Made by a program: the position numbers and the translations under genes. From Polyangiaceae bacterium (GTDB lineage Bacteria; Myxococcota_A; Polyangia; Polyangiales; Polyangiaceae), in contig CANJMI010000011.1 in the NCBI GenBank assembly GCA_947475525.1, positions 62,001-126,000 of the forward strand: a stretch of 64,000 bases of DNA, written 5' to 3'. The notes under the pieces are model-generated. The model was not told where the DNA came from and searched no databases. It worked only from the letters and a program-made list of their open reading frames with translations. This document shows, piece after piece, positions 19,650-45,529 of this stretch. Numbering within the stretch: position 1 is the stretch's first letter; every line of letters begins with the position of its first letter.

Positions 19650-22600
19650 TTAGTACCGGAGCTGGTAGAGGAACTCGAGACCGCTTGCGGCGCCGCTGCT
19701 CACGCCGACGGTCCCGCGCATGAGCCATCGGTCGGCGAAGCGCCAATCGATACCCAGCCTTGCCCGGGTGTCGCCGCCCGCGACGCCGGCGTTCGTCGTC
19801 GATCCAGTGGACCCGCTCGTGCCGCCGAGGGCGCCAAGTGGACCGGTCCCGGGCGCTTGCTCGACGACGGCCTGAGCGGAAAAACGGTCGGTGATTTGAT
19901 AGCTTACCGTTGTCGAGGTGTAGCCCTCCGAGGCCGCCCCGATCCCCGCCGAGAGGCCAGGGAGGGCGTCGCCGAACAGTTGATTCATTTCAGCAGCAAG
20001 CACGCCGCTGATTGCCTGGCTCGCTTGCCGTTGCGCATCGGTGGCGACAGAGCCGGTCAAGTCGAAGGTGTCGCCGAATAAGACCAGCCCGAGGATCGCG
20101 TCTTCACTGCGGGGCGGGTTGGAGCGAAAGTGCAGCTTTTCGCGGGTCAGCGGCTGCACGTTGCCGCCATAGTCGACAAAAACCACGGTCCCGTCCGGCG
20201 CGTTCCAGTGAGCGGTCATGTTGACGTAAGGGTTGCTCGGCTCTTCGCTGCGGAGACGGACGACTCCCCGGTCGAGCTCGAACGTCTTGCCCATCAGCTT
20301 CACAAAACCAGAGGAGAACACGAGCTCCCCGGACAAATCATTCGGACCGGCGACGCGAATCGGGTGGTCCGGGGCCGTCGAGAGCGTGAGCCGCAGCGCG
20401 CTTCCCTCGACTGTCGTGTTGCGTAGAACGACGTTCACGGCCACGAACCCGGGCTTCGTTTCGAGGGCTTGGGGCGGGCTTTGCGGCTGCCGCACGACGA
20501 CATCCGGATGGGGCGCGAGGGGCTGCGGCGAGAGGCGCGTGCGGCGCAAGGTATTGGAAGCAGGCAAGCGCAGGCGCAAGTCGGCGGCGGTCAAATCGAT
20601 GTCGAGGTGCTCCGCGTCGCGACGCTCGCCGCGCAACGCGATGGTGCCGCCGACGGTGCCGACAGCTTGCCCTTGCAGCGCCACCGGTAGCTCCTCGCCG
20701 TTTGGCACCGAAAATTGGCCGGTGAAGTCGATCAGTCGAAAGCCCGCGAGCCGCGCGTCGAGCTCACCGCTCAGGCGTCCGGTCGGGGTGGCCGCGCGGA
20801 TGTCATTGACGGAGATGAGCCCCGGTCGCGCGGTGATCAGCGCGCCGATGTCGGACAGCTCTTGACCATAGTCGGGGACGTGCAGCGAGCCGCCGGCAAC
20901 CGTGAGGCCAGCCTGCAAGATGACGTCGCTTCCTGAAAGGTCACGGAACGCTGCCGAAGCGCGGCCATCCAGCTTGCCACCGACGCTTGTTATCTCCTTC
21001 GGTAAGAGGGGTTGCAAGCTGCGGAGGGGGAAGGCGGTGGCCTCGAGGCTGACGGTGCCAGGGCGATTCACGTCGAGCTCGGGAACGCCATCGCGCCAGT
21101 GCAACGAGCTTTCGCCGCGGAGGACGAGTCGGCCTCCGCCGACAGCCCCGAGGCGGGCTTTGGCTTCGAATTCGGAAGTCGTGCCGTTCTCGCGCGAGCC
21201 GAGATCGATGCGAAATTCGTTGAACGCGACGGCGCCGAGGCGCATGCCTTGCCCTTCGATGCGCGCTGCGAGTTGGTGGTGCACGCCATCGTCGTGCAGG
21301 ACCACCTTCCCCGAGAGGTTGCCGTTGATGTCGCGCCGTGTGAGCGCGTCGATGGCGCCGAGCGGAAAGGCGTTGAGCCTTGCGGTGCCGGCGAGTCGTG
21401 CCCGCTCGGGTGGCCCGAACAAGCGCAAGGGTGGCCGTTCGAGTTGAGCGTCGAGTTCGGCGATGGTGCGCCGCGTTCCGCCTACGACCGGTAGTTCGAG
21501 CCACGCGCTGACGCGACCGGTGTTCTTTCGGTACGTGCCGATAACCTCAATGTCGACGGGGGGCACCCCGGCCTCGGCTGCGGCTCCGCCTGCGGTGAGG
21601 TTACGCATTCGCGCACGAATGGCGGCGTTTGGGTCGAGCGCCGTGCCGGCTGCGCGAGCGGCCACCGAGAGGGTTCCCCCGACGGGTACGAGCGCCTCGC
21701 GCCACGGTGACGGAAGGGCCGCGCGACCGCGCTCGTCGAGCTCGGGTGCATCCACGCGCGCCGAAAAGGGCGTCATCGCGAGGCCGAGGACGAGCCCTGC
21801 CGAAGTGGGAGGTGTTGAGAGCCATCGTGGATCGAGTGTCGCATCGACGTGGACCGTTGCGAGGCTCGCGGCGGCGTTGCGTCTCGTCGCGTCGAGCAGC
21901 GTCGCGTCGAGGGTGACAGCGCCGGTCGAGGTGTCGGCACGCGCGTCAACACGGGCATCCAGTCGGTCGCTCTGCCACGCGAGTTTGCCCGCGCCGTCGC
22001 TCGGCGCTGAGATCGAGAGACCACTTGTGACGAGCGAGACGTGGGCGAGCGCGAACTCTCCGCCCGCCCGTTTGCGCTCCGCGACCAAGCGAAGTTCGAC
22101 GTTTCCGCCGAGCGAGCCGAATGGAACGCGCTCGCGCGGTACGAGCGCCCCGACAAGCGGAGCTGCGCAGTCGAGGTCGATTGTCGACTCTTCGAGTTCG
22201 AGTTTTCCGGTGGCCGTGGTCCAGGTGTCCGCCGATACAAGGGGTCCGTCGAGATCGAGGTAGCCTCCGAGCGCGGCTGAAAAAATACCCTTGGTGCAAT
22301 TGCCTGCCGGGGTCGCGCCGCGCCAACGCAGCTCGGCGTGGGGGGCTACGTGAGTACCCTCGAAATCCACCGTGACGGTGCCGTCCACGCCCTCGACGAA
22401 GAGCGCGCTGGCATCGTGAACGCTCACTTTTGCATAACCGACTCGCGCCGCGTTCCCGGTGCGCCGCACGTCGACGTCGACGTCGACGGTCCCGCGAAGG
22501 GGTACTGGGAGCGCAAGCAACTTCGAGATGGCATGGAGGTCGATGCCATCTCCTTCGAGCTGACCGTCGAGCTCGCCGCCGACGACGCGCATATCCCCGC

Positions 22601-24518
22601 GAACCGTTCCGCCGACATCGCCGCCGCCAAGCACGACCGAGCCGAGCTGAACGTCGTTCTGTGGGCCGAGCGCCAACGATTGGATGCGACCGTGCACGAC
22701 GCTTCCCGCTCGCGATAGCTCCAGTGAGACGTCATGCAGCGTTTTTTTTGTGGCCTCGAGGACCCCTTCGGCGGTCCACGTACGAGCGTCATCATCCACC
22801 GCCTCGGCGTGCAGACGCGGGTGGGCGGCAAAGCCGGTTGCGCGCAACGCTATCGATGGCACCGTGCGTCCGGAAATCGCCAGCGTTTCGCCGCGCGCGC
22901 GCGCGTCGATGCGCAGCGCATCGAGGGCGCCGAATACGCGGGAATCGACCTCGGCGCGAGCCAGGCTGACGCCTTCGCGTGGAGCGGCGAGACCACGCAC
23001 GCGCGCGGTCGCGAACGCATCGAGAACCCCATCGGCGTAGCGACCCGAAGCGGTGAGCTCGCCGCTGCCGCGCAGCGTCGCCACCTGAGGCAAGGCCGAC
23101 TCGAGTCGAGGGATCGCTCCGAGTACCGGGACCACGGTGTGAAGCGCAAACTCGAGCGCCCTGTTCGCGCCGATTCGGACGAGCGCTTCGGTCGGTCCCC
23201 CCGGTTCGTCGATGCGCAGCCGCGCGTCCGCGCCACCTTCGGACGCGTCGAACGTTCCTGATGCCGGCGGCAACGCCAGGACGTTCCCGTGCGTCTGGGC
23301 AAGCTCCGACGCCCCGACGCGGATCGTCCCATGGGCCGCCCGTCGGTGTGCATCGACTCGCAGTGAGGCTTGGGCGCCGATGCGGCTCTCTCCGATGTTC
23401 GGTGCGAGCGTCGCGAGGTCGAGCTCGGAGGCGGTCACGTCGAGCGCAAGAGTGGCCGAGGCATTGTCGTAACGCCCGCGGACCTCGAGCGTGCCTGGTT
23501 TTGCCGGGCCTGACGGAAACACGCGCTCGCTCCGAGGGGGCACCGAGACCCGCGCCGCCGCCTCGAGGCCGTCTCCGTCACCTTCGAGCCGCAGCTCCAT
23601 GCCCACGGGGCTCGGTGGCTGGATCGGAGACTCTGGAAACCACGCGACAAGCGCCTCGCGTTCGACGCGTGGGGCAACGAGTGTGAGTGCATGCCGTCCC
23701 GCGCGCGTTCTTCCGCGAAGCCGAATTTGCAGGGTTCCGAGAGTTGCATCGACTTCGGCCGCGCCTTCGGTTGGCGGGCCGACGGCCCCTCCTGCGTCAC
23801 GCGGGAGACGCAAACTGAGCGCAATGCTCGCGTGGACCGGCATCGGAGCGAGCTTGCTCTCGGTGACCGTCGCGCGTGTGAGGTCGAGGTCGAGGGACGC
23901 GGGTTCGAACCGCAACGACGCGAGCAACTCCGTCACGACCGTATCGAGGGTGTGGGTCGGCGCGAGCGCGCCACGAACGCGCACCCTGTCGATTTCGATC
24001 CGCTCGAGAATCACGCGGATGGGCGCAGGTGGAGGGGCGAGCGGAGGTCCCGGCGGACCGGGCCGCTCTGCGAAGGCGCGGGCAAGTCCCAATGTGCCGG
24101 CGTCGTCGAGTTCGAGGTCGACTTCCGCGTCCTCCAACGCGAGTCGCCGAACGACGAGCCGCGGCGTTTCTCCAAGGACCGCGAGCAGGCCGAGCCAGCC
24201 CGGCCCCTCGACGGCGACGCGCCTCGCGGAGAGAACCGGATGCCCTTCCGGATCCGAGATTCGCACGTCCGCTATCGCGAGCGATGACGGCCCGAGCCGC
24301 TCGAGTCGCCCCACTCTCACGCGACCAGCGAGCGCGCCATCGAGGCTCGATGCCACGAGTCCTAGGACGACGCGACGGGTGAGTGGCAGCTCGAGATGCA
24401 GCACCGCGCCGAGCAGGAGGGCCGCAGCGAACGCCGGTGGCAGCACAAGGCCCGCGAGCACGACGCGAAACGCGCGCGTTTTCGATGGGGCTCGGTCGCC
24501 GGGCACGCGGGGGAGCAT
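19650..24518 (-). CDS. tamB: TamB / AsmA-like envelope protein (translocation and assembly module subunit)
   Basis: At 1622 residues this is in the size range of TamB. It has an N-terminal membrane anchor (VVLAGLVLPPAFAAALLLGAV) followed by more than 1,000 residues of repetitive beta strands of the kind that form a long hydrophobic groove. A C-terminal TamB (DUF490) domain includes DILGLVLFGDTF-like and SAQAVVEQAPG-like segments, and the protein ends LEFLYQLRY, with the terminal aromatic typical of the family. Known members span the periplasm and help outer-membrane protein assembly or phospholipid transport. The usual TamA partner (an Omp85 barrel) is not adjacent; the convergent neighbour is a different barrel. 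Start ATG at 24518 fits the anchor position. Confidence 0.85.
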   Translation of the reverse strand: MLPRVPGDRAPSKTRAFRVVLAGLVLPPAFAAALLLGAVLHLELPLTRRVVLGLVASSLDGALAGRVRVGRLERLGPSSLAIADVRISDPEGHPVLSARRVAVEGPGWLGLLAVLGETPRLVVRRLALEDAEVDLELDDAGTLGLARAFAERPGPPGPPLAPPPAPIRVILERIEIDRVRVRGALAPTHTLDTVVTELLASLRFEPASLDLDLTRATVTESKLAPMPVHASIALSLRLPRDAGGAVGPPTEGAAEVDATLGTLQIRLRGRTRAGRHALTLVAPRVEREALVAWFPESPIQPPSPVGMELRLEGDGDGLEAAARVSVPPRSERVFPSGPAKPGTLEVRGRYDNASATLALDVTASELDLATLAPNIGESRIGAQASLRVDAHRRAAHGTIRVGASELAQTHGNVLALPPASGTFDASEGGADARLRIDEPGGPTEALVRIGANRALEFALHTVVPVLGAIPRLESALPQVATLRGSGELTASGRYADGVLDAFATARVRGLAAPREGVSLARAEVDSRVFGALDALRIDARARGETLAISGRTVPSIALRATGFAAHPRLHAEAVDDDARTWTAEGVLEATKKTLHDVSLELSRAGSVVHGRIQSLALGPQNDVQLGSVVLGGGDVGGTVRGDMRVVGGELDGQLEGDGIDLHAISKLLALPVPLRGTVDVDVDVRRTGNAARVGYAKVSVHDASALFVEGVDGTVTVDFEGTHVAPHAELRWRGATPAGNCTKGIFSAALGGYLDLDGPLVSADTWTTATGKLELEESTIDLDCAAPLVGALVPRERVPFGSLGGNVELRLVAERKRAGGEFALAHVSLVTSGLSISAPSDGAGKLAWQSDRLDARVDARADTSTGAVTLDATLLDATRRNAAASLATVHVDATLDPRWLSTPPTSAGLVLGLAMTPFSARVDAPELDERGRAALPSPWREALVPVGGTLSVAARAAGTALDPNAAIRARMRNLTAGGAAAEAGVPPVDIEVIGTYRKNTGRVSAWLELPVVGGTRRTIAELDAQLERPPLRLFGPPERARLAGTARLNAFPLGAIDALTRRDINGNLSGKVVLHDDGVHHQLAARIEGQGMRLGAVAFNEFRIDLGSRENGTTSEFEAKARLGAVGGGRLVLRGESSLHWRDGVPELDVNRPGTVSLEATAFPLRSLQPLLPKEITSVGGKLDGRASAAFRDLSGSDVILQAGLTVAGGSLHVPDYGQELSDIGALITARPGLISVNDIRAATPTGRLSGELDARLAGFRLIDFTGQFSVPNGEELPVALQGQAVGTVGGTIALRGERRDAEHLDIDLTAADLRLRLPASNTLRRTRLSPQPLAPHPDVVVRQPQSPPQALETKPGFVAVNVVLRNTTVEGSALRLTLSTAPDHPIRVAGPNDLSGELVFSSGFVKLMGKTFELDRGVVRLRSEEPSNPYVNMTAHWNAPDGTVVFVDYGGNVQPLTREKLHFRSNPPRSEDAILGLVLFGDTFDLTGSVATDAQRQASQAISGVLAAEMNQLFGDALPGLSAGIGAASEGYTSTTVSYQITDRFSAQAVVEQAPGTGPLGALGGTSGSTGSTTNAGVAGGDTRARLGIDWRFADRWLMRGTVGVSSGAASGLEFLYQLRY

Positions 24519-24612: not shown

Positions 24613-26295
24613 ATGAAAAGCTGTCCCGCCTGCGCTCTGTCTTATCCCGATGAGACCACGTTTTGCTTCCTCGACGGCAAGACGCTGAGCGCGAACGAAG
24701 ACCCGTTGGTCGGCACAACGGTCGATGGCCTCGTGCGGCTTGAAGCGCGGCTCGCGAACTCGGGCTGGAGCCGCTCCTACCACGGCCGCATCCGACTCGT
24801 GGGCCAGCCGTGCGTCGTCAAGCTCCTCACGCTTCCCGACGGAGCTGAGGGGACCGCCGAGGCCGCGGTGATGGCGCGTCGCTCGAGCCACCACAACGTG
24901 TTGCCGCTCTTCTCGGTGCGGGTCGTCGGGAGAACCGTCGTGGTCGTGCGGCCCCAGGTCGAAGCCCAACCACTCGCGCTGCTCCTCGAACGCGCGCGGC
25001 TCGACGTGTCCCAGGCGGCTGGATTGACCCTTCAGATTCTTGCCGGCCTCGCGCGGCTCCACGACTTCGGAGGCGTCCACGGCAACCTGCGCCCCAGCAA
25101 CGCACTCTACTGGTCGAACGGCCACCTCGACCTCATCGACGTGGCCTTGGGGCGCGCGCTCGTACGCGAGCCGTGGGAGGACCAGCCCGAGTCCTTCGCC
25201 GCGCAGCATTATTTCGCTCCGGAACTCAACAATCATCACCGCACGTCGGTGCAGGCGGACCTGTTCGCTGCGGGAATTATCGCCTTCGAGCTTCTCACGG
25301 GGAGTCGGCCCTTCGGCGGGGATAACGTGCGCGTGCTCCGCGAGAGGCTCGCCGATGAGTCCACCGACGCGCTCTACGCCGCCCTTCGTCACGTCCCGCC
25401 GCCCATCGTCGCCTGGACGCTCGGTATGCTTGCGCGCGCCCCTGAGTTGCGCCCCGAGAGCGGGCAGCACGCCCTTGAGTTGCTTCGCGCGGCCTGCACC
25501 GAAGCCGCCATCGCTCCGATGCTCGATCCCGGGCGTCCCGAGGTCCCACGTGCGCACGAACTCGATCGTGGGCTCACGCGCTGGGAGCGTTATCGCGGCA
25601 TCTTCGCGACGATGCTCGAGGTGGGCTTCCCAGGCGGTCCGACCGAGCAGGCTCGCAGCGGACTCTCGGCGATCGTCGAGCGTGTCGACCGACTTGCGTC
25701 TCTCGGCAAACGCGCCTCCTTCGAGCTGGAAAATCACACCAGCACGACCGTCCGAGCCTTGTCCGGTCGCGAACGCCTGGCGGCTCAAATTTCGAAGGCG
25801 ACCGAGGGAGGCGAGGTCATTCGCAAGCGGATAGCAGCGCACAAGAGCGAAGCTTTCGTGTGTGGCGAGCGCGCGAGCGAGTTCAAACCGCGCGTGCTCG
25901 AATCGCATCGCGAGGTGATCCAATGGGAGGGGCGAAGTGGCTTCACGGAGCCGTACCAGGAGCTCGCGACGGCCTATCGGAATGTTGCCGACTTGATCAC
26001 CGCGTGGTGGGAGGCGCGTCAGGCGCAGCTCGAACACAACCGCGGCATCGAGGTGGAGCGCGAGAAGCTTCGTAGCATCGACGGCGAAGTGGATGAGATC
26101 CGCCAATCGCTGCGAATTCACGAGTCCAACATAGGCGGCGAGCTCGACGCGGCCGAAGCGGCGCTTGGTGCCCTTGGCAATGAGGCCGACCGGATTGAGC
26201 TCGAGTTGCTCGATCTCGCGTCGCGCTTCACGGCCCCGCTGCGGAGCAAGCCCGAGCTTGGGCCCCAGTTCAGCGCCCTCACGGCTCGGGAATAA
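24613..26295 (+). CDS. Zinc-ribbon pseudokinase with C-terminal coiled coil
   Basis: The 560-residue protein starts with CPACALSYPDETTFC, a ribbon-like Cys cluster with only three Cys visible. A protein-kinase fold follows (residues ~40-300). Lys70 (CVVKLL) and the APE segment (FAPEL, 201-205) are present. The glycine loop is absent, the catalytic HRDxKxxN reads HGNLRPSN (156-163; Asp replaced by Asn, Lys by Arg), and DFG reads DVA (176-178). Phosphotransfer is therefore unlikely, although ATP binding may remain. Residues ~330-560 are a long helical, coiled-coil-like region (RLAAQISKATEGGEVIRKR; EVEREKLRSIDGEVDEIRQ). There is no membrane segment. The final 17 bp overlap the convergent VanW gene. 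Probably a scaffold or allosteric partner in Ser/Thr kinase signalling. Confidence 0.8.
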   Translation: MKSCPACALSYPDETTFCFLDGKTLSANEDPLVGTTVDGLVRLEARLANSGWSRSYHGRIRLVGQPCVVKLLTLPDGAEGTAEAAVMARRSSHHNVLPLFSVRVVGRTVVVVRPQVEAQPLALLLERARLDVSQAAGLTLQILAGLARLHDFGGVHGNLRPSNALYWSNGHLDLIDVALGRALVREPWEDQPESFAAQHYFAPELNNHHRTSVQADLFAAGIIAFELLTGSRPFGGDNVRVLRERLADESTDALYAALRHVPPPIVAWTLGMLARAPELRPESGQHALELLRAACTEAAIAPMLDPGRPEVPRAHELDRGLTRWERYRGIFATMLEVGFPGGPTEQARSGLSAIVERVDRLASLGKRASFELENHTSTTVRALSGRERLAAQISKATEGGEVIRKRIAAHKSEAFVCGERASEFKPRVLESHREVIQWEGRSGFTEPYQELATAYRNVADLITAWWEARQAQLEHNRGIEVEREKLRSIDGEVDEIRQSLRIHESNIGGELDAAEAALGALGNEADRIELELLDLASRFTAPLRSKPELGPQFSALTARE

Positions 26296-27748
26296 CCTCG
26301 CCCGCGCGAGCGCCGCCGTCCTCCGTGGCGAGCGTGGTCGCGTCGCCTTCGAGCGGCGGCAGGTCGGCTTCCGTCGCGCCCGGACCGAGCAGGTAGATCT
26401 CGGTCGTCGGCGGGTAGGTGTCGCGCAGTTTTTCGATGACGGTTCGCCCATCGAGAAAACGCACGGTCCGGAGCTTTTCCACTACCACCCCTTTGCGCCC
26501 GGCTTGCTTGCGGACCACGCGTCCGAAAGCGAGGTAACGCAGAGCGTTGAGCTTCCGCTTGAACGGCGTCTCTCCGACGGTCGCCGTTTGAAGCTCGACG
26601 TTCGCCATCTTTTGTCGACCGAGCAGCTGGATGGTCAGCGTGCCTTCGTGAGCGACTGCGCGCACGATTACTGGAAATTCAAAGGGATTGCGGAGTCGAA
26701 GGTCCACGTCGGGGTAGACCACGGTCGCGTCGAGGCCGATCGGAATGTATGCGCTCGGCCGCGAGTGTGGGCTCCGCATGATGACCTCGAATCCTCCGAA
26801 CAGCGCCGCCGCGTGAAGGGTGCTCGCGACCTGGCAGGTCCCGCCTCCGATGCCGAGACGCATCTCGCCTTTATAGATTTCGCCCGCCTGCGAGAACCCG
26901 TTCTCGGCGCTGCGCGGACCGACGTGTTCGTTGAACGAGAAGGGCTCTCTCGGCATCACGACGACCCCGTCGATTCCTTCGGCCGCACGGGCGACGTTCT
27001 GTGCCCGGCTGCGCTGACCGCCCGTCGTGGCGAAGCGGGTCTCGTAGCGACCGACTTCGACCGACCGATCGATGCGGCCGACCGCGTCGGCGGTGATGGT
27101 TGGCGGGGTGCGGCGCAGCGCGAGCGACACGGTGGCTGGCGTGGTCGTCGCGCTTTCGGCGGCGCCGAGGATGGCCTCGGCCGTCCCGTACAGGTCGACG
27201 AGAACTCCATCTTCTTCGGGCACCGCGCGGTCACTCGTAAAGTTCCAGCGCGCGGCGTTGGGGCGCGTGTCCAGGCGCTCCTTGAGTGGAGCGAGTCGAG
27301 CGGCGAGCTCTTCGACAGGAAGTGTCGTCACAAGCGAGGTGTGGAGTTCTCCGTCCCGCGCGCGCAGGGCAAGGGCTATGCGGCGCCAGACGGTGGCTTG
27401 GTGATCCAGGCCCGCGACGACGGCTGACGCGTGTGCCGGGGCGACGCTCGCTCCGAGTTCCGCAAGCGTTCCGGTGAGAACGGTACGTCCCGCGTGAACA
27501 ACGTTCACCTGGCGCGCGAGGCGCTTGATGGACGCGGCCTCGAGCAGCGCCTGCGCCGAGATGCGGCCGTCGGCACGTTCGCCATCGACGGTGAACCCCG
27601 CGGGGGCCCCTCCGTTCTCAGGCAAAATTCGGGCGAAGTATCGCACCACGAGTGCGCCTCCGCCGACGAGGAGGAGGCTCGAGAAAAGTCGCGCGAGTGT
27701 GCCGTGTCCGCTCATCGTCTTGAGAACGCTCGCCGCGTGAGCGCGCAT
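26279..27748 (-). CDS. VanW family membrane-anchored protein
   Basis: The 489-residue protein has an N-terminal membrane segment (SSLLLVGGGALVVRYF) and then a peptidoglycan-binding-like region (~50-240). The VanW domain lies at about 245-400: EPFSFNEHVGPRSAENGFSQ, IGGGTCQVASTLHAAALFG and SRPSAYIPIGLDATVVYPD are diagnostic. The C-terminal ~80 residues are unassigned. VanW proteins occur in glycopeptide-resistance clusters and widely outside them; their biochemical role is unknown, with location and domain partners pointing to the cell wall. No van genes are nearby. The gene lies 64 bp after the SH3-domain gene of the Gld-like operon, on the same strand, and may be its last member. Confidence 0.85.
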   Translation of the reverse strand: MRAHAASVLKTMSGHGTLARLFSSLLLVGGGALVVRYFARILPENGGAPAGFTVDGERADGRISAQALLEAASIKRLARQVNVVHAGRTVLTGTLAELGASVAPAHASAVVAGLDHQATVWRRIALALRARDGELHTSLVTTLPVEELAARLAPLKERLDTRPNAARWNFTSDRAVPEEDGVLVDLYGTAEAILGAAESATTTPATVSLALRRTPPTITADAVGRIDRSVEVGRYETRFATTGGQRSRAQNVARAAEGIDGVVVMPREPFSFNEHVGPRSAENGFSQAGEIYKGEMRLGIGGGTCQVASTLHAAALFGGFEVIMRSPHSRPSAYIPIGLDATVVYPDVDLRLRNPFEFPVIVRAVAHEGTLTIQLLGRQKMANVELQTATVGETPFKRKLNALRYLAFGRVVRKQAGRKGVVVEKLRTVRFLDGRTVIEKLRDTYPPTTEIYLLGPGATEADLPPLEGDATTLATEDGGARAGEVIPEP

Positions 27749-27811: not shown

Positions 27812-28852
27812 TCAGCGGCCGAGCGCGGAACGGTACAGCCAACCTTGACGGTTGCCCATCTTGACTTCGAACCAGTCTTTGCGGCTCCCGAGGATCTTGA
27901 CGCGGGTTCCGCGAACGAGGCGCGCCACCGTCTTGCCCGTGCGCGGCTCGTCGCGCATCAGCGCGCTGTCCCATGCGATCGTTGCGACATCGTCACCGGC
28001 GGGTTCGGCCACCGGCGCCTCCTCGTCAACCTTCGCGGTAGGGGCTTCGGTGTGGGCCCGAAAATGGAGCGCGAAGTCGACGAGGTAGCGGCCATGGTCG
28101 TGGGGGATCTTCTCGGCTTGGAGATCACGCACATAGTCGGCGACGCAGGCGAGAATGCCGCTGACGGTCGTGGTCGGAAGCTCGGCCCGCGACGGCACGT
28201 CGGCCGAAGCGCCAGCGGCCCCGGTTGGGGGAGCGCTCTTTGGATTGCCGCCGTCTGCCGCAGGCCCCGCGCTCTTCTTCCCCTTCTTGACGTGAATGGC
28301 CTTTTTGTCGAAGTCGATGTCGAAGGTGAGGCTGAGAGCACCGGTCAAGCCGAGGGCCGACGGGCAACTGCTCAACTGGCGCAGGTTTGGCACGAACGTT
28401 CGGTCGAGCTTCAGCGTGCCGCAGCGCGCGCCATCGAGTTTCTCTTTGCCGTGCCAGCACGTTACGATGGTGCCTCCATCGACGGTGACGGTCTGTTTCG
28501 TCGCAGGCGGCGCGGGCGTTTCGCTCTCGTCAGCGGATGCGACCTTCGAGAGGGCGATGCCCGTCGCGAGGGCCGAGGGTGTCGTCCCGGCGTTCGCGGT
28601 GCCGCTGCCAGCCGCATGGACGTCGTCGTCAGCGTCTTTTTTCATGCCGGGCACGTTCGGCCCGAGATGCTTGCCGGCGAGGACGGGCCACGACACGCCG
28701 ATGACCAGGCCTATCGCCGCGAGGACGGCTACCTTGCGATGGGAACCCGGCCCCTCATCCTGTGGGACATCGACGCGCGTTTTTTGCGGCTTTGCCAAGT
28801 CGGGGGGAGTTAGCACGAGTCTCTCGAACGGGCCGAAAAAACGCGGTTTCAC
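27812..28852 (-). CDS. Membrane-anchored bacterial SH3 domain protein
   Basis: The 346-residue protein has a short cytoplasmic N-terminus and one membrane segment (VAVLAAIGLVIGVSWPVLA, near residue 40). A Ser/Ala linker leads to a central domain with a Cys pair (VTCWHGKEKLDGARCGTLK) and a region rich in Pro/Ala. The C-terminal ~65 residues form an SH3b domain (ALMRDEPRTGKTVARLVRGT ... WFEVKMGNRQGWLYRS). Bacterial SH3 domains bind peptidoglycan or peptides in the periplasm. The GTG start overlaps the stop of the DUF4340 gene as GTGA. It is the fifth gene of the Gld-like operon, which suggests it works with the transporter at the cell wall. Confidence 0.75.
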   Translation of the reverse strand: MKPRFFGPFERLVLTPPDLAKPQKTRVDVPQDEGPGSHRKVAVLAAIGLVIGVSWPVLAGKHLGPNVPGMKKDADDDVHAAGSGTANAGTTPSALATGIALSKVASADESETPAPPATKQTVTVDGGTIVTCWHGKEKLDGARCGTLKLDRTFVPNLRQLSSCPSALGLTGALSLTFDIDFDKKAIHVKKGKKSAGPAADGGNPKSAPPTGAAGASADVPSRAELPTTTVSGILACVADYVRDLQAEKIPHDHGRYLVDFALHFRAHTEAPTAKVDEEAPVAEPAGDDVATIAWDSALMRDEPRTGKTVARLVRGTRVKILGSRKDWFEVKMGNRQGWLYRSALGR

Positions 28853-31077
28853 GGCGCGTCAAGTATGGGGCCCAAGCGCGCGAGTGCGACGACGAAGGTC
28901 GCGTCGAGGCCTTTTTTTCGCACGTAGGAAACTTTGATGTCGTGCCACACCGACGTTGCACCGACGATGAGCTCGAGCGGAGTTCTCCCGTCGCGCCGCG
29001 TGATCGTGATGCGGCCACGAGGCACGTCAAAGCCCTCGGAGGCCGCCGCGCTCCCCAGCGTAGCGACGCCCTCGGCGAGCAGGGCCTCGAGCGATTTTCC
29101 GACCGTTACGGCACGCGTGTCATTGGGATGCGTCGCCCCGGGTAGCGCCCACGCATCGCCGCGCCGGATGATCTCGAGCTTGCGCTCACCGACCACGACG
29201 GCCACTGCATCGACCTCGCTTGGTTCGATCAGAAGCGCGCCCCGATCGAGCAACCATTCGCGGCTCATGACCGCCAGCGGACGCGGCGCGACGAACACGG
29301 CGGTCTCCTTGTCGCGTCGTGCGAAGTAGCCGCCATCGGTCTCGGCGCCGAGGTAAAAGTCGATCGTTTTGCGCTTCTCGTTGGGATCGTCCGGGGCCGT
29401 GCTGCCGCTCGAATCCGGCTCCGCAACCACGAGTCGAATCGAGCACCACGGTTTTTCGAGTCCGTGACGGGCCTCGGCCTTTTCCGAATCCCATCGTACC
29501 GCCGTGAGCTCGCGAAGCACCTCGACGAGCTCAGTTGGGGCCGCGAGATCGGCTCGAAGTTCGGTCTTCGGTTCGCGTCGCGTCCAGACGCTCTTTGAGT
29601 CGCGCACGAGCGCCTGGCGCTTTGCAGCACAATCGAGCTCAAGGGCGCGAACGTGTTTGAGCGGGACGCTGAGCAACTGCGTCGGACGGAGGGCGCTCGG
29701 CGCGGGCACGAGGGAGGATGCGGCCTCCGCGGGGACCCGCAGGATGGTGCCGTCGCCTTTGCGTCGCACGTGCACGACACCGTCGGCGAGGGAGCCTACG
29801 TCGAACTCTTCGATGTGATCGGGCGCGTCCGGTCCGGCGGCGCGGTCCGGCAGACCAACGACACGCAACTTTGCGCGTGGCGGGTCGAATCCCAGCTTTT
29901 TTGCGTCGTTTACGTCGTCCTGGGTGACGCGGATGCCTTCGGCGTGGGCGAGGCGTTCGAGCAGCGCATTCCCGATCTCTGCCGTTATCTGAGTGTCTTC
30001 TGGCTTGCGAAGGTGCCACCCGTCGGCTCGCCGTGCGAGCTCGACCGTCGTCGAATCGTCGGACCACTTGAGCTCGGTTACGTCGGTTTCGGGCAGGCCT
30101 AGAACGTACGAGTCGATGAAGCGCTTTGGGTCCACGCGCACATTCTCGGCAACGTGAGCATCGACGCAGGCCGTGAGCGCATCGGGTTCACGTCGCCGCA
30201 CGAGGGTGCCCCCTTCGCAGGCCCCCCCGAACTCGAGCACGGCCTTCGGCTTGGTGGGATCGAGCGGCACGATCGTGAGCGTGGCCGTGACGCTCCCCGC
30301 GCCCGGGTCCTCGATGAAACGCAAGGCTTCGAGGCGAGCGAGCGACGTCGTCCATGCGTCCACCGTTCGAAAGCTCGCGCGTTGTTTTCCGGTCGCGCTC
30401 GACTCGATCGCGAGATCCACGGTGGCGCGCCCGCCCGAACCCGCACGTCGCAGCGTCCACTCGAACGGACCTCCGAGCTCGTAGCTCGCAACGGCGCTCG
30501 ACACGTAGGGGGACAGCTGTTTGCTACGAAGGCTCCTTGGTTCTTCGAGGAGCGCCTTCACGAGCGCGGCCTTCACGACGTAGAGCGTCTTGGGGCGCGC
30601 GCCACCTTCGACTTCGGCGTAGTGGGCGCCTTCTGGGCTTGGGGCTTCGCCGCCGATTCGCAGCACGTAGTGAAATTTCGCCATCGCCACGGTCACGACG
30701 ATGATCGGGGAATCGAGTCCGAGCGTCTTTCGGTCGAGCCCTTCGACGCGCCGCTCGAAGCTCGCGTATTCCAGGGTGAGCATGAAGTCTTCGACCTCTT
30801 GCTCGTCGGCGGTAAGCTTGCGGTCTCCATCCTTGAGTGAAAAACCGTGGTCGCCGTTCGCCTCGATATGGCGTCGCACTTCGACGCGGCCGTTGGCTCC
30901 TTCGACGAGCAGCGTGTCGACCTCGTCGGGGCGCCACGCTTCGAAGAGCTGCAGTTTTCGAGAGCTCGCTTCTTCGGTCGAGATTCGATCGCGATCCCAG
31001 TAGGCGACGCCGGCGAGCAGGGCTGCCGCGACGACGAGCGCACCGGTGACGCGATACCGCTTCCAGCGACCGATCAC
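28849..31077 (-). CDS. DUF4340 domain protein, membrane-anchored
   Basis: The 742-residue protein has one N-terminal membrane segment (GALVVAAALLAGVAYW), then a large soluble region with repeated alpha/beta modules such as VTELKWSDDSTTVELARRA plus GWHL and LDRKTLGLDSPIIVVTV. This is the DUF4340 pattern (FxRxxDGWxL-like strands and YGLxxP-like turns). DUF4340 genes commonly sit next to GldG-like and ABC-2 genes, as here. The start ATG overlaps the GldG-like gene stop as ATGA, and its own stop overlaps the SH3 gene start. Biochemical function is unknown; it is predicted to sit in the periplasm as an accessory of the ABC transporter. Confidence 0.82.
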   Translation of the reverse strand: MIGRWKRYRVTGALVVAAALLAGVAYWDRDRISTEEASSRKLQLFEAWRPDEVDTLLVEGANGRVEVRRHIEANGDHGFSLKDGDRKLTADEQEVEDFMLTLEYASFERRVEGLDRKTLGLDSPIIVVTVAMAKFHYVLRIGGEAPSPEGAHYAEVEGGARPKTLYVVKAALVKALLEEPRSLRSKQLSPYVSSAVASYELGGPFEWTLRRAGSGGRATVDLAIESSATGKQRASFRTVDAWTTSLARLEALRFIEDPGAGSVTATLTIVPLDPTKPKAVLEFGGACEGGTLVRRREPDALTACVDAHVAENVRVDPKRFIDSYVLGLPETDVTELKWSDDSTTVELARRADGWHLRKPEDTQITAEIGNALLERLAHAEGIRVTQDDVNDAKKLGFDPPRAKLRVVGLPDRAAGPDAPDHIEEFDVGSLADGVVHVRRKGDGTILRVPAEAASSLVPAPSALRPTQLLSVPLKHVRALELDCAAKRQALVRDSKSVWTRREPKTELRADLAAPTELVEVLRELTAVRWDSEKAEARHGLEKPWCSIRLVVAEPDSSGSTAPDDPNEKRKTIDFYLGAETDGGYFARRDKETAVFVAPRPLAVMSREWLLDRGALLIEPSEVDAVAVVVGERKLEIIRRGDAWALPGATHPNDTRAVTVGKSLEALLAEGVATLGSAAASEGFDVPRGRITITRRDGRTPLELIVGATSVWHDIKVSYVRKKGLDATFVVALARLGPILDAP

Positions 31078-32687
31078 GACGGCTCCTCGTCTTTCTTAGA
31101 GGCTGCCCCGGCGCCCTTCGGCTTGCGGCTTGCGGCCTCCGATGCATTGCGCCGCCAGCGAATCAGCACGCCGACCGCGAGGATGGCGAGGGGTAGGGCG
31201 ACGACGACTTCGAGCAGCACGGTTTGCAGCACGTCTTCCGTGATCTGCAGCCCGACGGGAGGTCGCCCGCGCTTATCGGGGATGTCGAGAACGACGGTCT
31301 TCGATGCGAGCCACGACACGACGCCTTCGACCAAGAACGCGCCTCCTTGCAGTTGCGGGTTCGACCAGTTGCGCCCCGCGAGAAAGCTTGCTGACGAGAG
31401 CGCGACGAGTCGAGCGCCGTGCGCAGCATCAGGACGTGTCTTTGGCAGCTCGACGGCATAGCCAAGTTGCAGCGGCCCGTGGCGATCGTCCGGTCCCGGC
31501 TCCGGCGCCTTTCCGGTGTCCGCCCAGGCGAAGACGTTCGCCATGCCAAAGGCCTTCTCCGATGTTTCAAGGAGTGGCACCGGTTTGATGGCCGCACTGG
31601 CGAGGGGTTCGAGGGCGCTCGCTTCGACGACCACGATGGGCACCGCGTCTCCGGCGATACGGAGTGCGGTCGTCGATGGATGATCGAGCAAAGTTGCTAG
31701 GAACATCTCGCCTTGGCCTGCGCTCGCCCGTCGCTCCGGGTCACGCTCGAACACGAGCTCCTGCCGCAGGACGAGGCCCCCCGCGGCGAGCAGCGGCTCG
31801 AGCCCCAACGAGACGAATCCCTTTTGTGCATCGTCGGGCATCGGACCGGTTACGACGAGCACGTTGCCACCCGCCAGGAGCTGCAGACGCAGCCGCTCGA
31901 CATCGGCTTTCGAGAGCCGCAGCTTCGGTGCGGCCACGATCACGAGCGCGCACTCGGCGATCGGATCTTTGCCTTCGAGTTCCGGTAACGGAAGAAGCGT
32001 CGTTACGCGGAAATTGCTCTTGGTGAGTCGCTGAACGAGCGGCGCCATGCCGTCGTCGCCGCCGGAGTCGATGCTCGGTTCGCCGTGTCCAGACGTGACG
32101 CAGATCGACACGGGCGCTCCCGCGAGAACTTCGCGTAGCCCTGCGGTCAGCACCTTTTCGACTTGCGGGCGAATGCGCATCTCGGCCCCCTGGTCGATGT
32201 GCACGAGCTCGTCCGCTCCGATGTAGTGTTTTCGATCGCCGCGCACGATGATCACGGTCGCATCGGTAACGACGTGCCCGTTCTCGGATTTTCCGGTGAC
32301 GATGCCGAGTTTTTGTTGAGCGGCGAAGAGCTCGGCGGGGTTCGAGTCGGGGTCGATGAAGTGGAGCGCGAGTCGGTCGGACTTCGCGCGGTAGTTCGTG
32401 AGGAGGTGGCGTAGCGTCAGGGTGATCGGCTCGGCCTCGCTCGACAGGACCCAAACGTCGACGGGGGCGGACAGCGATGTAAGCGTCTCTTCGGTGACAT
32501 GGCTGAGCGTGTAGAGCCCTTCGGCGGTCCAATCCCAGCGTCGGTAATGCCGGGCCGCGAGGACGTTGGCAAAGACGGCGATCACGATCGCCGCAGCCAC
32601 GCCGATGGCATGCGATAAGGCGACGGCGCGATCCTGCCGCGGAAGTGGCGTTTGGGCGGGTCCAGCGCCTCGCGCGCGGGGCTTCAT
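31074..32687 (-). CDS. GldG-like auxiliary ABC transporter protein
   Basis: I use the ATG at 32687, which overlaps the permease stop as ATGA and gives 537 residues; the longer frame from 32810 runs into the permease gene. There is an N-terminal membrane segment (IGVAAAIVIAVFANVLA), the segment RRWDWTAEGLYTLS that opens GldG/ABC_transp_aux domains, a GldG-type alpha/beta region (VSICVTSGHGEPS; VTGPMP), and a C-terminal membrane segment (VVVALPLAILAVGVLI). In Bacteroidetes GldG works with GldA and GldF in gliding and secretion; outside that phylum homologues are of unknown role. The neighbouring ATPase and ABC-2 permease make up the rest of the transporter. Confidence 0.85.
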   Translation of the reverse strand: MKPRARGAGPAQTPLPRQDRAVALSHAIGVAAAIVIAVFANVLAARHYRRWDWTAEGLYTLSHVTEETLTSLSAPVDVWVLSSEAEPITLTLRHLLTNYRAKSDRLALHFIDPDSNPAELFAAQQKLGIVTGKSENGHVVTDATVIIVRGDRKHYIGADELVHIDQGAEMRIRPQVEKVLTAGLREVLAGAPVSICVTSGHGEPSIDSGGDDGMAPLVQRLTKSNFRVTTLLPLPELEGKDPIAECALVIVAAPKLRLSKADVERLRLQLLAGGNVLVVTGPMPDDAQKGFVSLGLEPLLAAGGLVLRQELVFERDPERRASAGQGEMFLATLLDHPSTTALRIAGDAVPIVVVEASALEPLASAAIKPVPLLETSEKAFGMANVFAWADTGKAPEPGPDDRHGPLQLGYAVELPKTRPDAAHGARLVALSSASFLAGRNWSNPQLQGGAFLVEGVVSWLASKTVVLDIPDKRGRPPVGLQITEDVLQTVLLEVVVALPLAILAVGVLIRWRRNASEAASRKPKGAGAASKKDEEPS

Positions 32688-33430
32688 TCGAGTCTCCAGG
32701 CATCGACCGCGCGTACGGTGATGAAGAGCGGTAGCACCACCACGGTCGCGTCGAACACGAGGCGGCGCGAGTCGATGATGCCGCGAGAGAAGTCGTTCAT
32801 TTGCGCCCAAGCGGAGACGTGCCCAGCGATGTCACGCCCGATCCCCTCGGGAAAAATGAACTCGCCGACACCGATCATGAACAGGCCGATGATCGCCATG
32901 GCGCTCGTCAACGCCGCGGCAAGTTGGCTCTTCGCGAGCGCACTCGTCATCGTGCCGATCGCCAAGTAGCCAGCGCCGATCGCGAGGACCGCCAGGTACC
33001 CCGACGCGACCACGTGCCAATCGACCTCGCCGTAGCGGCTGAGCAGCAGCATGTAGAGCAGGGTAGGCAGCCACATCGCTGCGTAAATCAACACCACAGC
33101 TAGGTATTTTCCGAGGACGACGCCCGCAGTTTCGATAGGCGCCGTGAGGAGCGGTTCGATGGTTCCGCTGCGGCGCTCTTCGGCGAACAGCCGCATGGTC
33201 AGGACGGGACAGACGAACAGAAGCGGCAAGTAGAGCATCATCGTCTGCCCGAAATAGGTCTGCACCGGGCCGGCGTCGGCGCTGAGATCGAGCTGTCCGG
33301 CGAAGTGCTGGACGATGAGAAAGAAGTGAAGTCCCTGGATGAGGAGGAACGCCGTCATCGCCACCCACGCGAGCGGCGTGACAAAGTGCGCGAAAACCTC
33401 ACGTTTGAAGATTGGCCAGAGCCCTCTCAT
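32684..33430 (-). CDS. ABC-2 type permease (GldF-like)
   Basis: The 248-residue protein has six hydrophobic segments and the typical ABC-2 opening with a cytoplasmic amphipathic start (LWPIFKREVFAHFVTPLAW), then a large loop before MMLYLPLLFVCPVLTMRLFAEERRSGTIEPLLTAP, whose EExxxGTxE-like EERRSGTIE motif is the coupling element of this family. Members export lipids, polysaccharides or other substrates; the substrate here is unknown. The start ATG overlaps the ATPase gene stop, and the stop overlaps the GldG-like start, both by 4 bp, so translation of the transporter subunits is likely coupled. Confidence 0.88.
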   Translation of the reverse strand: MRGLWPIFKREVFAHFVTPLAWVAMTAFLLIQGLHFFLIVQHFAGQLDLSADAGPVQTYFGQTMMLYLPLLFVCPVLTMRLFAEERRSGTIEPLLTAPIETAGVVLGKYLAVVLIYAAMWLPTLLYMLLLSRYGEVDWHVVASGYLAVLAIGAGYLAIGTMTSALAKSQLAAALTSAMAIIGLFMIGVGEFIFPEGIGRDIAGHVSAWAQMNDFSRGIIDSRRLVFDATVVVLPLFITVRAVDAWRLE

Positions 33431-34398
33431 GGTGCAGCCTCGTCGGTCGTTGCGCTGTTCATGTCGTCCCGTGTCAGCGTCGCGAAGACCTCTTCGAGTG
33501 TGGCCGTCGTCGTGCGCACCTCGCGAACGCCTACGTCCGCCTGCGCCAGTGCCCGTACGATCCGCTCTGTGGCCTCGCCCAGCGCGGCGTCGTCTTCGGC
33601 CGTCAGTATGGCCTTGGCTCGGAGGGTGTCTCCATGCACCTCGACCGTCGCGCTAGCGATGCCGTCGAGGCCGCTCAGGGTCGCGCGCACAAGCGCCTCG
33701 GTGCCGCGCAGCACGAGGGTGAGTTCCGGTCGCCCGCGGCCGCGGATCTCGTCGATGGAACCCACGGCGACGAGCCTGCCTTTCGCGATCACGACTGCCC
33801 GCGAACATGAGGCTTCGACCTCCGACAGAATGTGGGTAGAGACGAGGACGGTGTGCTCTTCGGCGAGCGTGGCGATCAGCGCTCGAACCTCGCGGATTTG
33901 ATTTGGATCGAGGCCGGCGGTGGGCTCGTCGAGGATCAGGAGGGGGGGCGAGTTGAGGAGGGCATCGGCGAGACCGACGCGCTGGCGGTAGCCTTTCGAG
34001 AGATGGCCGATGGGCACGCCGGCCATCTCGCTCACCCGTGCGAGCTCGAGGCAGCGGGCAATCTCGACGCGCCTCTTGGTGCGGGCGACGCCTTTCAGTT
34101 CCGCGCGAAATGCCAGGTATTCACGCACCTTCATCTCGGGGTAGAGGGGCGAGGTCTCGGGCATGTAGCCGATTTGGCGAAGGGCTTGGAGGCGCTCGTC
34201 GACGATGTCAAAGCCGGCGATGCGCACGCGGCCGCTCGAGGCGCCGAGGAACCCGGCGAGGATGCGCAGCGTTGTCGACTTGCCTGCGCCGTTGGGGCCA
34301 AGAAAGCCCACGACCTGCCCCCGCTCGACGCGAAAGGAGAGGTTACTGACGGCCTCGATGCCGCGGTAGCTCTTCGAAAGGTGTTCGACCTCGATCAT
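33427..34398 (-). CDS. ABC transporter ATPase (GldA-like)
   Basis: The 323-residue protein has Walker A GPNGAGKST, Q-loop region GYMPETSPLYP, signature LSKGYRQRVGLA, Walker B LLILDEPTAGLDP and the switch His in VSTHIL. The C-terminal ~100 residues, including GRPELTLVLRGTEALV, form the extra domain seen in drug- or lipid-type ABC-2 ATPases. It should power the GldF-like permease encoded next, with which it overlaps by 4 bp. It is the first gene of the five-gene operon; the promoter would be in the 104-bp gap to the divergent gene at 34503, where I see no convincing -35/-10 pair. Confidence 0.92.
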   Translation of the reverse strand: MIEVEHLSKSYRGIEAVSNLSFRVERGQVVGFLGPNGAGKSTTLRILAGFLGASSGRVRIAGFDIVDERLQALRQIGYMPETSPLYPEMKVREYLAFRAELKGVARTKRRVEIARCLELARVSEMAGVPIGHLSKGYRQRVGLADALLNSPPLLILDEPTAGLDPNQIREVRALIATLAEEHTVLVSTHILSEVEASCSRAVVIAKGRLVAVGSIDEIRGRGRPELTLVLRGTEALVRATLSGLDGIASATVEVHGDTLRAKAILTAEDDAALGEATERIVRALAQADVGVREVRTTTATLEEVFATLTRDDMNSATTDEAAP

Positions 34399-34502
34399 CG
34401 ATGGATGCGCTTACCAGAGCGCGCGGCGAACGCAAATGGCGGCCGATGCGTGTCGCGGCGCTCGCAATCGCCTCCCGGGCGCATTAGTGTCCGAGGCCGC
34501 CA

Positions 34503-34973
34503 ATGGACCAGGCGCTCCTCCGCTCCTATTACGCGACCATCTACGAGCTCCCGTCTCCGAAGGGTGTGGTTCGTGCGTCGCTCGACGGCGAGACGCTGAG
34601 CGCCGTCGATGGTTTCCCCGACCTCCTGCGGACGACGTTTGCTCTCCTCACGGCCTACAATCCCCGCTCGATGCTGCTGCCGCGGCGTGTCAACGAAGGC
34701 CGACACCAGGTCATGCGCGACATGCTGATTCTCGGTTGCTACCGGGTTGAGCCCTGCGTCGGTTACGAGGCGGATTCGAAAGAGAGCGTGTGGCGCGAGC
34801 CCGCGTGGCTCGTTCACGGAATGGATCGCGAAGAAGCGGTCGCTTTTGGGCGTGTTTTCCGTCAAAACGTCGTCATCGTCGTCCGCGAAGGGCGTCCCGA
34901 GATCATCGTCACCGACCCCACCGCGGATGATATCGGCAAGACGTTCGAAACGACCTGGCGGGTGCGCACATGA
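34503..34973 (+). CDS. DUF3293 family protein
   Basis: The 156-residue cytosolic protein fits DUF3293: it opens with ALLRSYYATIYEL, has a central LLTAYNPRSMLLP strand-turn (the conserved (T/S)A(Y/W)NP motif), and carries WREPAWLVHGMDREEAVAFG and FRQNVVIVV. Members are small proteins of unknown role found mainly in proteobacteria. The length is as expected. Its stop overlaps the start of the next gene, a lipoprotein, by 4 bp (ATGA), so the two are probably translated together although one is cytosolic and the other exported. Confidence 0.65.
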   Translation: MDQALLRSYYATIYELPSPKGVVRASLDGETLSAVDGFPDLLRTTFALLTAYNPRSMLLPRRVNEGRHQVMRDMLILGCYRVEPCVGYEADSKESVWREPAWLVHGMDREEAVAFGRVFRQNVVIVVREGRPEIIVTDPTADDIGKTFETTWRVRT

Positions 34974-35464
34974 CCGCGGTCCGCGTTCCCCCGTTCGAGC
35001 GGCGCTATGGTTTTCAAAGCGTTCGGCGTTTTGGGGGCGTTCGATGCGTCGTCGTGGCCGTCGCTCTTCTCGGCCTCAGCGCCTGCGGCCCGAAGAAGCG
35101 CATCGAAGAGTGCCGGGCCTTCGTCGGTGCGATCAACGAAGGCGTCGACAAGATCCACAAGTCGATGGGCGCGACCCCGGAGTCGGGGCAGTCGGTGGCT
35201 GAGCTCCGTGCCCTCGCACTGGAAATGGATGGCGCCGCCAAGCTGACCGAGAAGGTGTCGCTGACGACGCCCGAGCTCGAGAAATTCTCGCAGCGTTATC
35301 TCGAGCTGACCAAAGACCTCGCCACGGCATCACGCGAGCTTGCCGATGCGGTCGATGCGGTCGATGTGGAGAAGTCCACCAAGCTTCAGAGCCGGATGGA
35401 GGAGATCGTGAAAAAAGAGGATCCCCTCGTCGAAGAGCTCAACCGGTTCTGCCAGACTCCCTGA
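34970..35464 (+). CDS. Helical lipoprotein of unknown function
   Basis: The 164-residue product has a long basic N-region followed by a hydrophobic core and lipobox LSAC (Cys39 with GPKKR after it). The start used is the ATG that overlaps the DUF3293 stop; no better in-frame ATG precedes the hydrophobic core. The mature part is almost entirely helical and charged (EECRAFVGAINEGVDKIHKS; DLATASRELADAVDAVD; SRMEEIVKKEDPLVEELNRF), with two Cys that could form a disulphide (in EECRAF and RFCQTP). I do not recognise a family. Small helical lipoproteins like this often act as periplasmic scaffolds. Confidence 0.6.
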   Translation: MTAVRVPPFERRYGFQSVRRFGGVRCVVVAVALLGLSACGPKKRIEECRAFVGAINEGVDKIHKSMGATPESGQSVAELRALALEMDGAAKLTEKVSLTTPELEKFSQRYLELTKDLATASRELADAVDAVDVEKSTKLQSRMEEIVKKEDPLVEELNRFCQTP

Positions 35465-35529: not shown

Positions 35530-36024
35530 CTACCAAGCCTGATCGCGCATCTCTTCGCGGTACTTCTTTTGATAGAGCGAATGGCATTTCTTGCAGGATG
35601 CCTTTGCCGTGTCGAGGTCTCCCGCGCGTGCTTTGTCGGCGCCTTCTTTCGCGATCGCGACCCACTGGTCAAAGCCCGCGACAGGCTTCGAGGCGACGAC
35701 ATCGAGGGCGTTCGCGAGCTCTTTCGCCTCGCCGCTGCCCGCGGCCTTGGCGAGCACGCTCTTCATCCACCCTTGCATCGGACAGGGCTTTTGCCCCTTG
35801 GCACCACACTCATAGGTCTTGCCGAGCATCGTCCCGGCCTCCGACTCACTGCCCGTCAAGGCACTGCCCGTCAAGGCACTGCCCGTCAGGGCACTGCCCA
35901 CTAGAACGGCCGCGGCCTGCGTGTCCACGGCGAGCTCCTCGTGCGTCCCCGCATCGGCCGACTTGCTTTTGCATGCGACGAGCGCCGCGAACGCGACGCC
36001 AACGAACAAGATTGAGCGCTTCAT
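35530..36024 (-). CDS. Lipoprotein with single CxxCH haem motif, cytochrome c-like
   Basis: The 164-residue product has a short signal peptide with lipobox LVAC (Cys18), a linker with three GSALT repeats, and a helical domain ending with CKKCHSLYQKKYR. The CxxCH motif (Cys144, Cys147, His148) sits near the C-terminus, as in class II cytochrome c (c-prime or c556) four-helix bundles, which would place a covalently bound haem in the periplasm. The Cys pair in YECGAKGQKPC is extra. An electron-transfer or sensor role is an inference from the motif alone; no oxidase or reductase genes are adjacent. It is divergent from the thymidine phosphorylase gene. Confidence 0.65.
   Translation of the reverse strand: MKRSILFVGVAFAALVACKSKSADAGTHEELAVDTQAAAVLVGSALTGSALTGSALTGSESEAGTMLGKTYECGAKGQKPCPMQGWMKSVLAKAAGSGEAKELANALDVVASKPVAGFDQWVAIAKEGADKARAGDLDTAKASCKKCHSLYQKKYREEMRDQAW
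35847..35899. repeat. Three-and-a-half tandem copies of a 15-bp unit
   Basis: The unit cactgcccgtcaagg repeats three times (third copy with one change) followed by a partial copy. It encodes GSALT pentapeptides in the linker of the haem-motif lipoprotein on the minus strand and is frame-neutral. Confidence 0.9.
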
Positions 36025-45246: not shown

Positions 45247-45529
45247 TGCGAGCTCCGTGCCAGCTCCAAAGCCGCGAAACCACGCGAGAGCGCAACGTCC
45301 GCACGTGGCGGCCGTTAACGGTGCCCTGGCGGTCCGCCACCCTCCGCCACCCTCCGCGCCGTCACGCGTCACCCGTCAGACGACCGGCATCACTCGATTC
45401 GCTTCGCGGGCTCCGGTCCCACAACTCATGGTGTTTTAGGCCTGCCCAAGCGAGCGTAAGTTCCTTCACCAGTGTATTCGGGACCTGCCGAGGTTGCGGT
45501 GATTGCGCTGGGCCAGTAGCCTTTTTCAA

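Follow-up and report, generated by a model that had tools for sequence, protein, structure and literature searches.

In the 64,000-nt stretch of DNA analysed here (the window), a GldA/GldF/GldG-like ABC system was found whose core, as judged from its sequence, is a unit of four genes with a DUF4340 protein as regular fourth member. The overall best explanation, to which a probability of roughly 60% is given, is that these four genes encode a cell-envelope ABC complex that is not a gliding system and that the SH3-domain gene following them is a separate neighbour.

Gene layout and protein families

Five open reading frames follow one another in the same direction on the minus strand, each overlapping the next by 4 bp if the longest frames are taken (ATPase 34398-33427, permease 33430-32684, GldG 32687-31074, DUF4340 31077-28849, SH3 28852-27812). 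The features of the region are:

34412..34416, minus strand: promoter-like TGGTA, 13 nt before the ATPase start (from sequence)
33427..34398, minus strand: GldA-like ABC ATPase, 323 aa (PF00005, 108.7 bits)
32684..33430, minus strand: GldF-like ABC-2 permease, 248 aa (PF12679, 50 bits)
31074..32687, minus strand: GldG-like protein, 537 aa (PF09822, 65.7 bits; PF23357, 45.6 bits)
28849..31077, minus strand: DUF4340 protein, 742 aa (PF14238, 126.2 bits, in four stretches)
28811..28841, minus strand: promoter-like element before the SH3 gene, TTTTTTC (28841-28835), 19 nt, TGCTA (28815-28811)
27812..28798, minus strand: SH3b protein, longest open reading frame from GTG at 28852, probable TTG start at 28798 (PF08239, alignment)
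26279..27748, minus strand: VanW-family protein, a neighbour (PF04294, 143.1 bits, cut-off 27)

The Pfam cut-offs are passed by the ATPase (ABC_tran, 108.7 against 25 bits), the ABC-2 permease (50 against 27.2), the GldG-like protein (ABC_transp_aux, 65.7 against 34.7) and the DUF4340 protein (126.2 against 25). The ATPase contains the Walker A motif GPNGAGKS, the ABC signature LSKGYRQR, the Walker B motif LILDEP and an STH H-loop. For the permease, hydropathy analysis predicts six hydrophobic segments and no large external domain, and for the GldG-like protein two clear segments (27-45 and 491-509) and a borderline one (349-367), with DUF7088 and ABC_transp_aux between the terminal hydrophobic segments. 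GldA, GldF and GldG are the closest named NCBIfam families of the three proteins, with scores below the respective equivalog cut-offs (TIGR03522 GldA: 275.5 bits, cut-off 402.6; TIGR03518 GldF: 117.7 bits, cut-off 288.5; TIGR03521 GldG: 42.9 bits, cut-off 389.85). Both the Pfam matches and these closest names confirm the ATPase, ABC-2 permease and GldG-like families on which an earlier note on this DNA had based its description of a Gld-like ABC operon, and the presence of the four families in one operon and in that order places the locus among the broad GldAFG-DUF4340 ABC operons.

The AlphaFold model of the DUF4340 protein (pLDDT 89.1, pTM 0.67) predicts an N-terminal helix (2-28) followed by repeated alpha/beta units, five of 125-147 aa with boundaries set by the analyst. 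Comparison of the whole model with solved structures using Foldseek returned top rows of low TM-score, several of them DNA sliding clamps, and the best VIA-align row (Z 5.8, rmsd 4.1, 104 residues) is no convincing match; the absence of a whole-model match does not establish a new fold. Sequence searches against solved structures gave nothing useful for the GldG, DUF4340 or SH3 proteins.

The VanW gene has the same orientation as the operon and follows the SH3 gene after a gap of 63 nt; its product scores 40 bits against the glycopeptide-resistance accessory family VanW (NF033128), for which the cut-off is 365. On the side of VanW, positions 19650-24518 (minus strand) encode a 1622-aa TamB-like protein (PF04357), which has a strong match in the G001 region as well (L044). 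A protein with a protein-kinase domain is encoded at 24613-26295 (plus strand; PF00069), and in several loci its match adjoins the SH3 gene in opposite orientation. The genes of a DUF3293 protein (34503-34973, plus strand) and of a predicted 164-aa protein that has no Pfam match (34970-35464, plus strand) diverge from the ATPase gene. A small open reading frame at 35530-36024 (minus strand) has a lipoprotein-like start, a short in-frame repeat (ALTGS units) and no Pfam match, and an AmiA-like amidase domain (PF07313) is encoded at 45503-46636 (plus strand).

Distribution and paralogues

In an even sample of the phylum Myxococcota, GldG (PF09822) was found in 110 of 112 genomes, in 109 of them over the cut-off, and DUF4340 (PF14238) in 102 of the same 112 genomes, which makes it a conserved partner of GldG. 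Among the matches listed with both places, 72 of 81 genomes have GldG and DUF4340 side by side in this order (DUF4340 on the strand of GldG and downstream of it, with a start-to-start distance below 4 kb), and nine of these 81 genomes have no such pair listed. A protein search identified GldG in 37 of 39 relatives, and the order ATPase-permease-GldG-DUF4340 recurs through the taxonomic order. Behind the main-type GldG, no DUF4340 match was found in G014, G031, G038 and G032 in a single-sequence search, nor in the loci L154 (2.2 kb downstream), L170 (9.6 kb) and L180 in a profile search. L180 belongs to a deltaproteobacterial MAG, has neither a DUF4340 nor an SH3 match and lies outside the 44 Polyangia loci considered below.

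A scan of named genomes yielded 54 loci, including Sorangium, Polyangium and many Polyangiaceae or Myxococcales MAGs, and, beyond the Myxococcota, two Thermoanaerobaculales, six Verrucomicrobiota and one Lutibacter. All eight of the Acidobacteriota and Verrucomicrobiota loci found (L174-L179, L181, L182) have all four genes in order. They share the four families and their arrangement with the window operon, but their GldG proteins are only 22-26% identical to that of the window, their DUF4340 reading frames are shorter and a profile search found no SH3 neighbour. The Lutibacter locus has the permease and GldG without DUF4340. PA4037-PA4040 of Pseudomonas aeruginosa may be a related system, in which PA4037-PA4039 presumably encode an ATPase, a permease and a GldG-like protein. 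PA4040 is named as a DUF4340 protein (PMC8088628).

The source genome contains three GldG loci with a DUF4340 match close to each. The two further GldAFG-like loci (G000:C3:124800-129900 and G000:C15:131200-136300; L075, L076) have DUF4340 frames of 384 and 389 aa, shorter than that of the window, while the window-type DUF4340 proteins of relatives mostly have 715-806 aa. A GldG tree of 37 rows places the protein of the window in a group of 24 rows (98/96) that holds every main-type GldG row except G032, with the paralogues apart. The C15 copy groups with other paralogues and the C3 copy with the GldG proteins of G032 and Lutibacter (97/98 for the three), a position that is unsure because of long branches and of only 22% of columns being filled.

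All families of the operon are already present in public databases and the operon type is known but uncharacterised; in a literature search conducted mostly at the level of titles and abstracts, no functional study of the DUF4340-linked GldAFG form was recognised.

Extent of the operon

It had been stated in the earlier note that all junctions of a five-gene operon overlap by 4 bp. This applies to the longest reading frames of the window, and the first three overlaps recur in the regions of the source genome and its relatives: ATPase/permease at 33 of 37 junctions, permease/GldG at 25 of 33, with a 1-bp overlap at five more, and GldG/DUF4340 at 22 of 28. The fourth does not, as a 4-bp DUF4340/SH3 overlap was found at none of four junctions in the relatives' regions. 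These counts were derived from 40 regions of the source and related genomes, including paralogues and contig fragments. Such overlaps are moreover ordinary in the window because 7 of 22 same-strand neighbour pairs have them, including the four of the operon, in a gene list from which six doubtful reading frames were dropped and to which 40687-42942 was added by hand.

The overlap is also lacking in the close relative G003, the GldG of which is 73% identical to the window's; there, the nearest start codon in the SH3 frame within the searched stretch is at least 47 nt past the DUF4340 stop, and in several relatives the SH3 gene begins some 45-50 nt later. In the window, codon 19 of the SH3 reading frame is a TTG (28798), 50 nt past the DUF4340 stop. 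This TTG and the following Ala-Lys codons align with GTG-GCG-AAG, the SH3 start of the G001 orthologue, and with ATG-GCA-AAG in G002, which is internal to the longest G002 reading frame starting further upstream, 4 nt past the DUF4340 stop. Because relatives start later, the window TTG aligns with their starts and a promoter-like element lies in the gap, the DUF4340/SH3 overlap is probably a start-codon artefact of an over-long reading frame, leaving an operon of presumably four genes plus a neighbour. A translationally coupled unit of five genes was rejected on account of the unconserved DUF4340/SH3 overlap and the promoter-like element in the gap. The case of the SH3 gene illustrates that an over-long reading frame can mimic operon membership of a neighbour.

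The promoter-like element itself recurs. Within 110 nt upstream of the gene, the motif TG[CG]TA is found at 33 of 37 SH3 genes (expected 2.6, maximum 7 in 200 Markov shuffles) and at 17 of 35 ATPase genes (expected 2.1, maximum 6), and it is rare upstream of the other genes (permease 1/38, GldG 3/41, DUF4340 1/41, VanW 0/12). A run of T residues followed by TG[CG]TA at a spacing of 10-26 nt occurs at 20 of 37 SH3 genes and at none in the other five gene sets. Where the SH3 gene is collinear behind DUF4340, TG[CG]TA is present in 10 of 11 cases, L132 being the exception. The motif had been selected by eye from the SH3 upstream regions, and the other five gene sets played no part in the choice. 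Genes with a profile match beginning after position 25, with too little upstream sequence or with low scores (ATPase below 250 bits, VanW below 300 bits) were left out, so that 35-41 genes per set and 12 VanW genes were kept. Scans for consensus promoters and terminators gave results near chance level. Since TG[CG]TA marks the SH3 and ATPase genes and is rare at the operon-internal junctions, there are probably two transcription units, one comprising ATPase, permease, GldG and DUF4340 and the other SH3 alone, and the SH3 protein is probably a neighbour transcribed from its own promoter.

The SH3 protein and its neighbourhood

The SH3_3 domain (PF08239) scores 23.7 bits in the window protein, below the cut-off of 27, and is matched in all 19 of 19 SH3 orthologues at E<=1 (best 2.2e-11). 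Structure comparison of the domain with SH3b structures resulted in Z values of about 9-11 over about 60 residues and in a resemblance to the domains found in wall hydrolases as well as in other SH3b proteins of bacteria; it is thus an SH3b domain both by sequence and by fold. The model of the whole protein (pLDDT 72.5, pTM 0.46) predicts one transmembrane helix (38-58), an alpha/beta domain (121-265) and the SH3 domain from about position 288. The alpha/beta domain carries four conserved cysteines (132, 144, 163 and 236), which are invariant in 19 sequences. The pattern of its alpha/beta elements might point to a TonB-like middle domain (about 121-265), for which Pfam and NCBIfam gave no match; the rows of the structure comparison were all taken up by the SH3 domain.

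Outside the Polyangiaceae, the SH3 protein is rare. Of 25 genomes of the family, 24 have it, compared to 3 of 14 genomes of other families of the order; in the phylum sample it was found in 11 of 12 genomes of the family and in 2 of 100 others, one of which (G058) has the SH3 domain only. Of the families whose co-occurrence in Myxococcota was raised in the earlier note, GldG (110/112) and DUF4340 (102/112) are widespread in the phylum sample and the SH3 protein is not. Of the two partners named there, DUF4340 is conserved; conservation of the SH3 protein is limited to the Polyangiaceae, and its gene seemingly forms its own transcription unit.

The SH3 protein might nevertheless be a genuine fifth subunit linking the ABC complex to peptidoglycan, with assistance from VanW. 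Its gene is no more than 5 kb away from the DUF4340 end of the operon in 22 of 34 judgeable Polyangia loci (10 of the 44 Polyangia loci being set aside as too short downstream or lacking a DUF4340 match), more often than the other flanking genes of the window, and its domain matches those of wall hydrolases. However, it is on the opposite strand in 13 of these 22 loci and on the same strand in nine, and 12 Polyangia loci with at least 5 kb downstream have no SH3 gene. In G017, G019 and G018 the gene is located beside VanW away from the operon, and in G007 SH3 and VanW lie together about 10 kb from it; in G009 the operon is split over two contigs, with SH3 about 3 kb behind the DUF4340 piece. 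Few Myxococcota outside the Polyangiaceae have the SH3 protein, though nearly all have GldG, and its promoter-like element and the unconserved overlap argue in the same direction. Furthermore, other flanking genes are kept near the operon in the 44 Polyangia loci as well (DUF3293 in 15, the 164-aa predicted protein in 13, a thymidine-phosphorylase-like gene in 11, a kinase-like gene in 10, one of them weak, and VanW in 7), so that shared ancestral gene order suffices to explain the linkage. A functional connection of SH3 and operon beyond gene order is possible and not required, and a fifth subunit is judged unlikely. The pointer to peptidoglycan in the earlier note is weakened by the same considerations: the SH3 domain and the VanW family are indeed present, but the link rests on two genes that are neighbours through the shared gene order of the family.

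Relation to gliding motility

The combination of a four-gene anatomy and a role outside gliding, with SprA as the gliding marker examined, is considered highly likely. SprA_N (PF14349), a marker of type IX secretion, was found in none of the 112 Myxococcota genomes, the source genome included, and was detected in the Lutibacter genome used as positive control. The statement of the earlier note that a gliding role is not implied is upheld by this distribution, as GldG was found in 110 and SprA in none of the same 112 genomes. A distribution tied only to known gliding genes, which the note had named as grounds against its reading, is thus not observed with SprA as marker.

In the family of the Lutibacter control (60 genomes, Flavobacteriaceae by tree annotation), GldG was found in 53 genomes, in 52 over the cut-off, and DUF4340 in only three, each time beside a lower-scoring GldG at a distance of 1.0-1.3 kb from start to start. 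The DUF4340-linked GldG proteins have E-values of about 1e-53 to 1e-55, and those of the usual GldG in this sample range from 1e-73 to 1e-101; two of the three genomes also encode the usual GldG elsewhere. Because the rare DUF4340 adjoins lower-scoring GldG proteins, the DUF4340-linked form is distinct from the usual flavobacterial form.

A gliding-motility system like the GldAFG system of Bacteroidota would agree with GldA, GldF and GldG as best NCBIfam matches and with the signature LSKGYRQR, which the window ATPase has in common with GldA of Flavobacterium johnsoniae (PMC9127263). The three protein families are also the same in both systems, and gldG is downstream of gldF in Flavobacterium, too (PMC5682007). 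In contrast to F. johnsoniae, all three window proteins are below the equivalog cut-offs, the ATPase gene is within the same operon, a DUF4340 partner is present and SprA was not found in the 112 Myxococcota. A gliding role was rejected in view of the sub-cut-off Gld scores, the near-universal GldG of the phylum sample, the occurrence of the operon also in Verrucomicrobiota and Acidobacteriota, the negative search for SprA in the 112 genomes and the rarity of DUF4340 in Flavobacteriaceae (3/60), and it is regarded as very improbable.

Proposed function

The operon probably serves general cell-envelope upkeep rather than gliding. The four proteins would form one inner-membrane ABC complex with a predicted topology in which the GldG-like protein has a large portion flanked by membrane segments on both sides, and the DUF4340 protein combines one N-terminal helix with a long repeat region. 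ATP hydrolysis at the ATPase-permease pair would provide energy that is passed to a periplasmic module of GldG and DUF4340, and this module may act on a substrate in the cell envelope; most likely, lipid-anchored components of the envelope would be moved, released or stabilised by it. The complex would be a general system of Myxococcota and not a part of gliding.

Action on lipoproteins or lipids is proposed because of the reported effects of GldA and GldF on the lipoproteins GldJ and GldK in Flavobacterium and because of a DUF4340 domain reported as essential in Verrucomicrobium. An active-site mutation of GldA lowers GldJ and GldK and GldF is needed for the stability of GldK (PMC9127263), and in V. 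spinosum the DUF4340 domain of VSP_RS39600 is essential (PMC12283558). The effect on lipoproteins was observed in Flavobacterium, where it may be indirect, and all of these findings concern systems other than the present operon; by this analogy a lipoprotein/lipid mechanism is put forward tentatively for the envelope substrate.

Alternatively, the operon might encode an ABC-2 exporter of the ordinary type that transports a lipid or small molecule, in which GldG and DUF4340 would be accessory components in the periplasm. The six-segment permease without a large external domain would fit an exporter, and the ATPase also matches DrrA-type exporters (TIGR01188, 215.8 bits, under the cut-off of 312.45), but its GldA score is higher. 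The near-universal presence of GldG in the phylum sample suggests a housekeeping function, and two large periplasmic subunits are kept across phyla. ABC-2 exporters usually need fewer than two such subunits. An exporter is therefore rather doubtful compared to the envelope-upkeep complex.

The papers on GldAFG cited here discuss it as a gliding/T9SS component of unclear function. To this, the present analysis adds that the DUF4340-linked form is set apart from the usual flavobacterial form and that the assignment of the fifth gene is corrected. By the occurrence of DUF4340 in 102 of 112 Myxococcota and 3 of 60 Flavobacteriaceae, a widespread form can be told apart from that used in gliding, and this offers a simple test of the role of the machine outside gliding. 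It is conceivable, though held with low confidence, that GldAFG-DUF4340 is an ancient, phylum-spanning envelope machine with a multi-unit periplasmic DUF4340 arm that varies in length between lineages, from which the DUF4340-free GldAFG of gliding Bacteroidota is derived. If this is true, DUF4340 would mark the general form of the system and gliding would be a secondary use.
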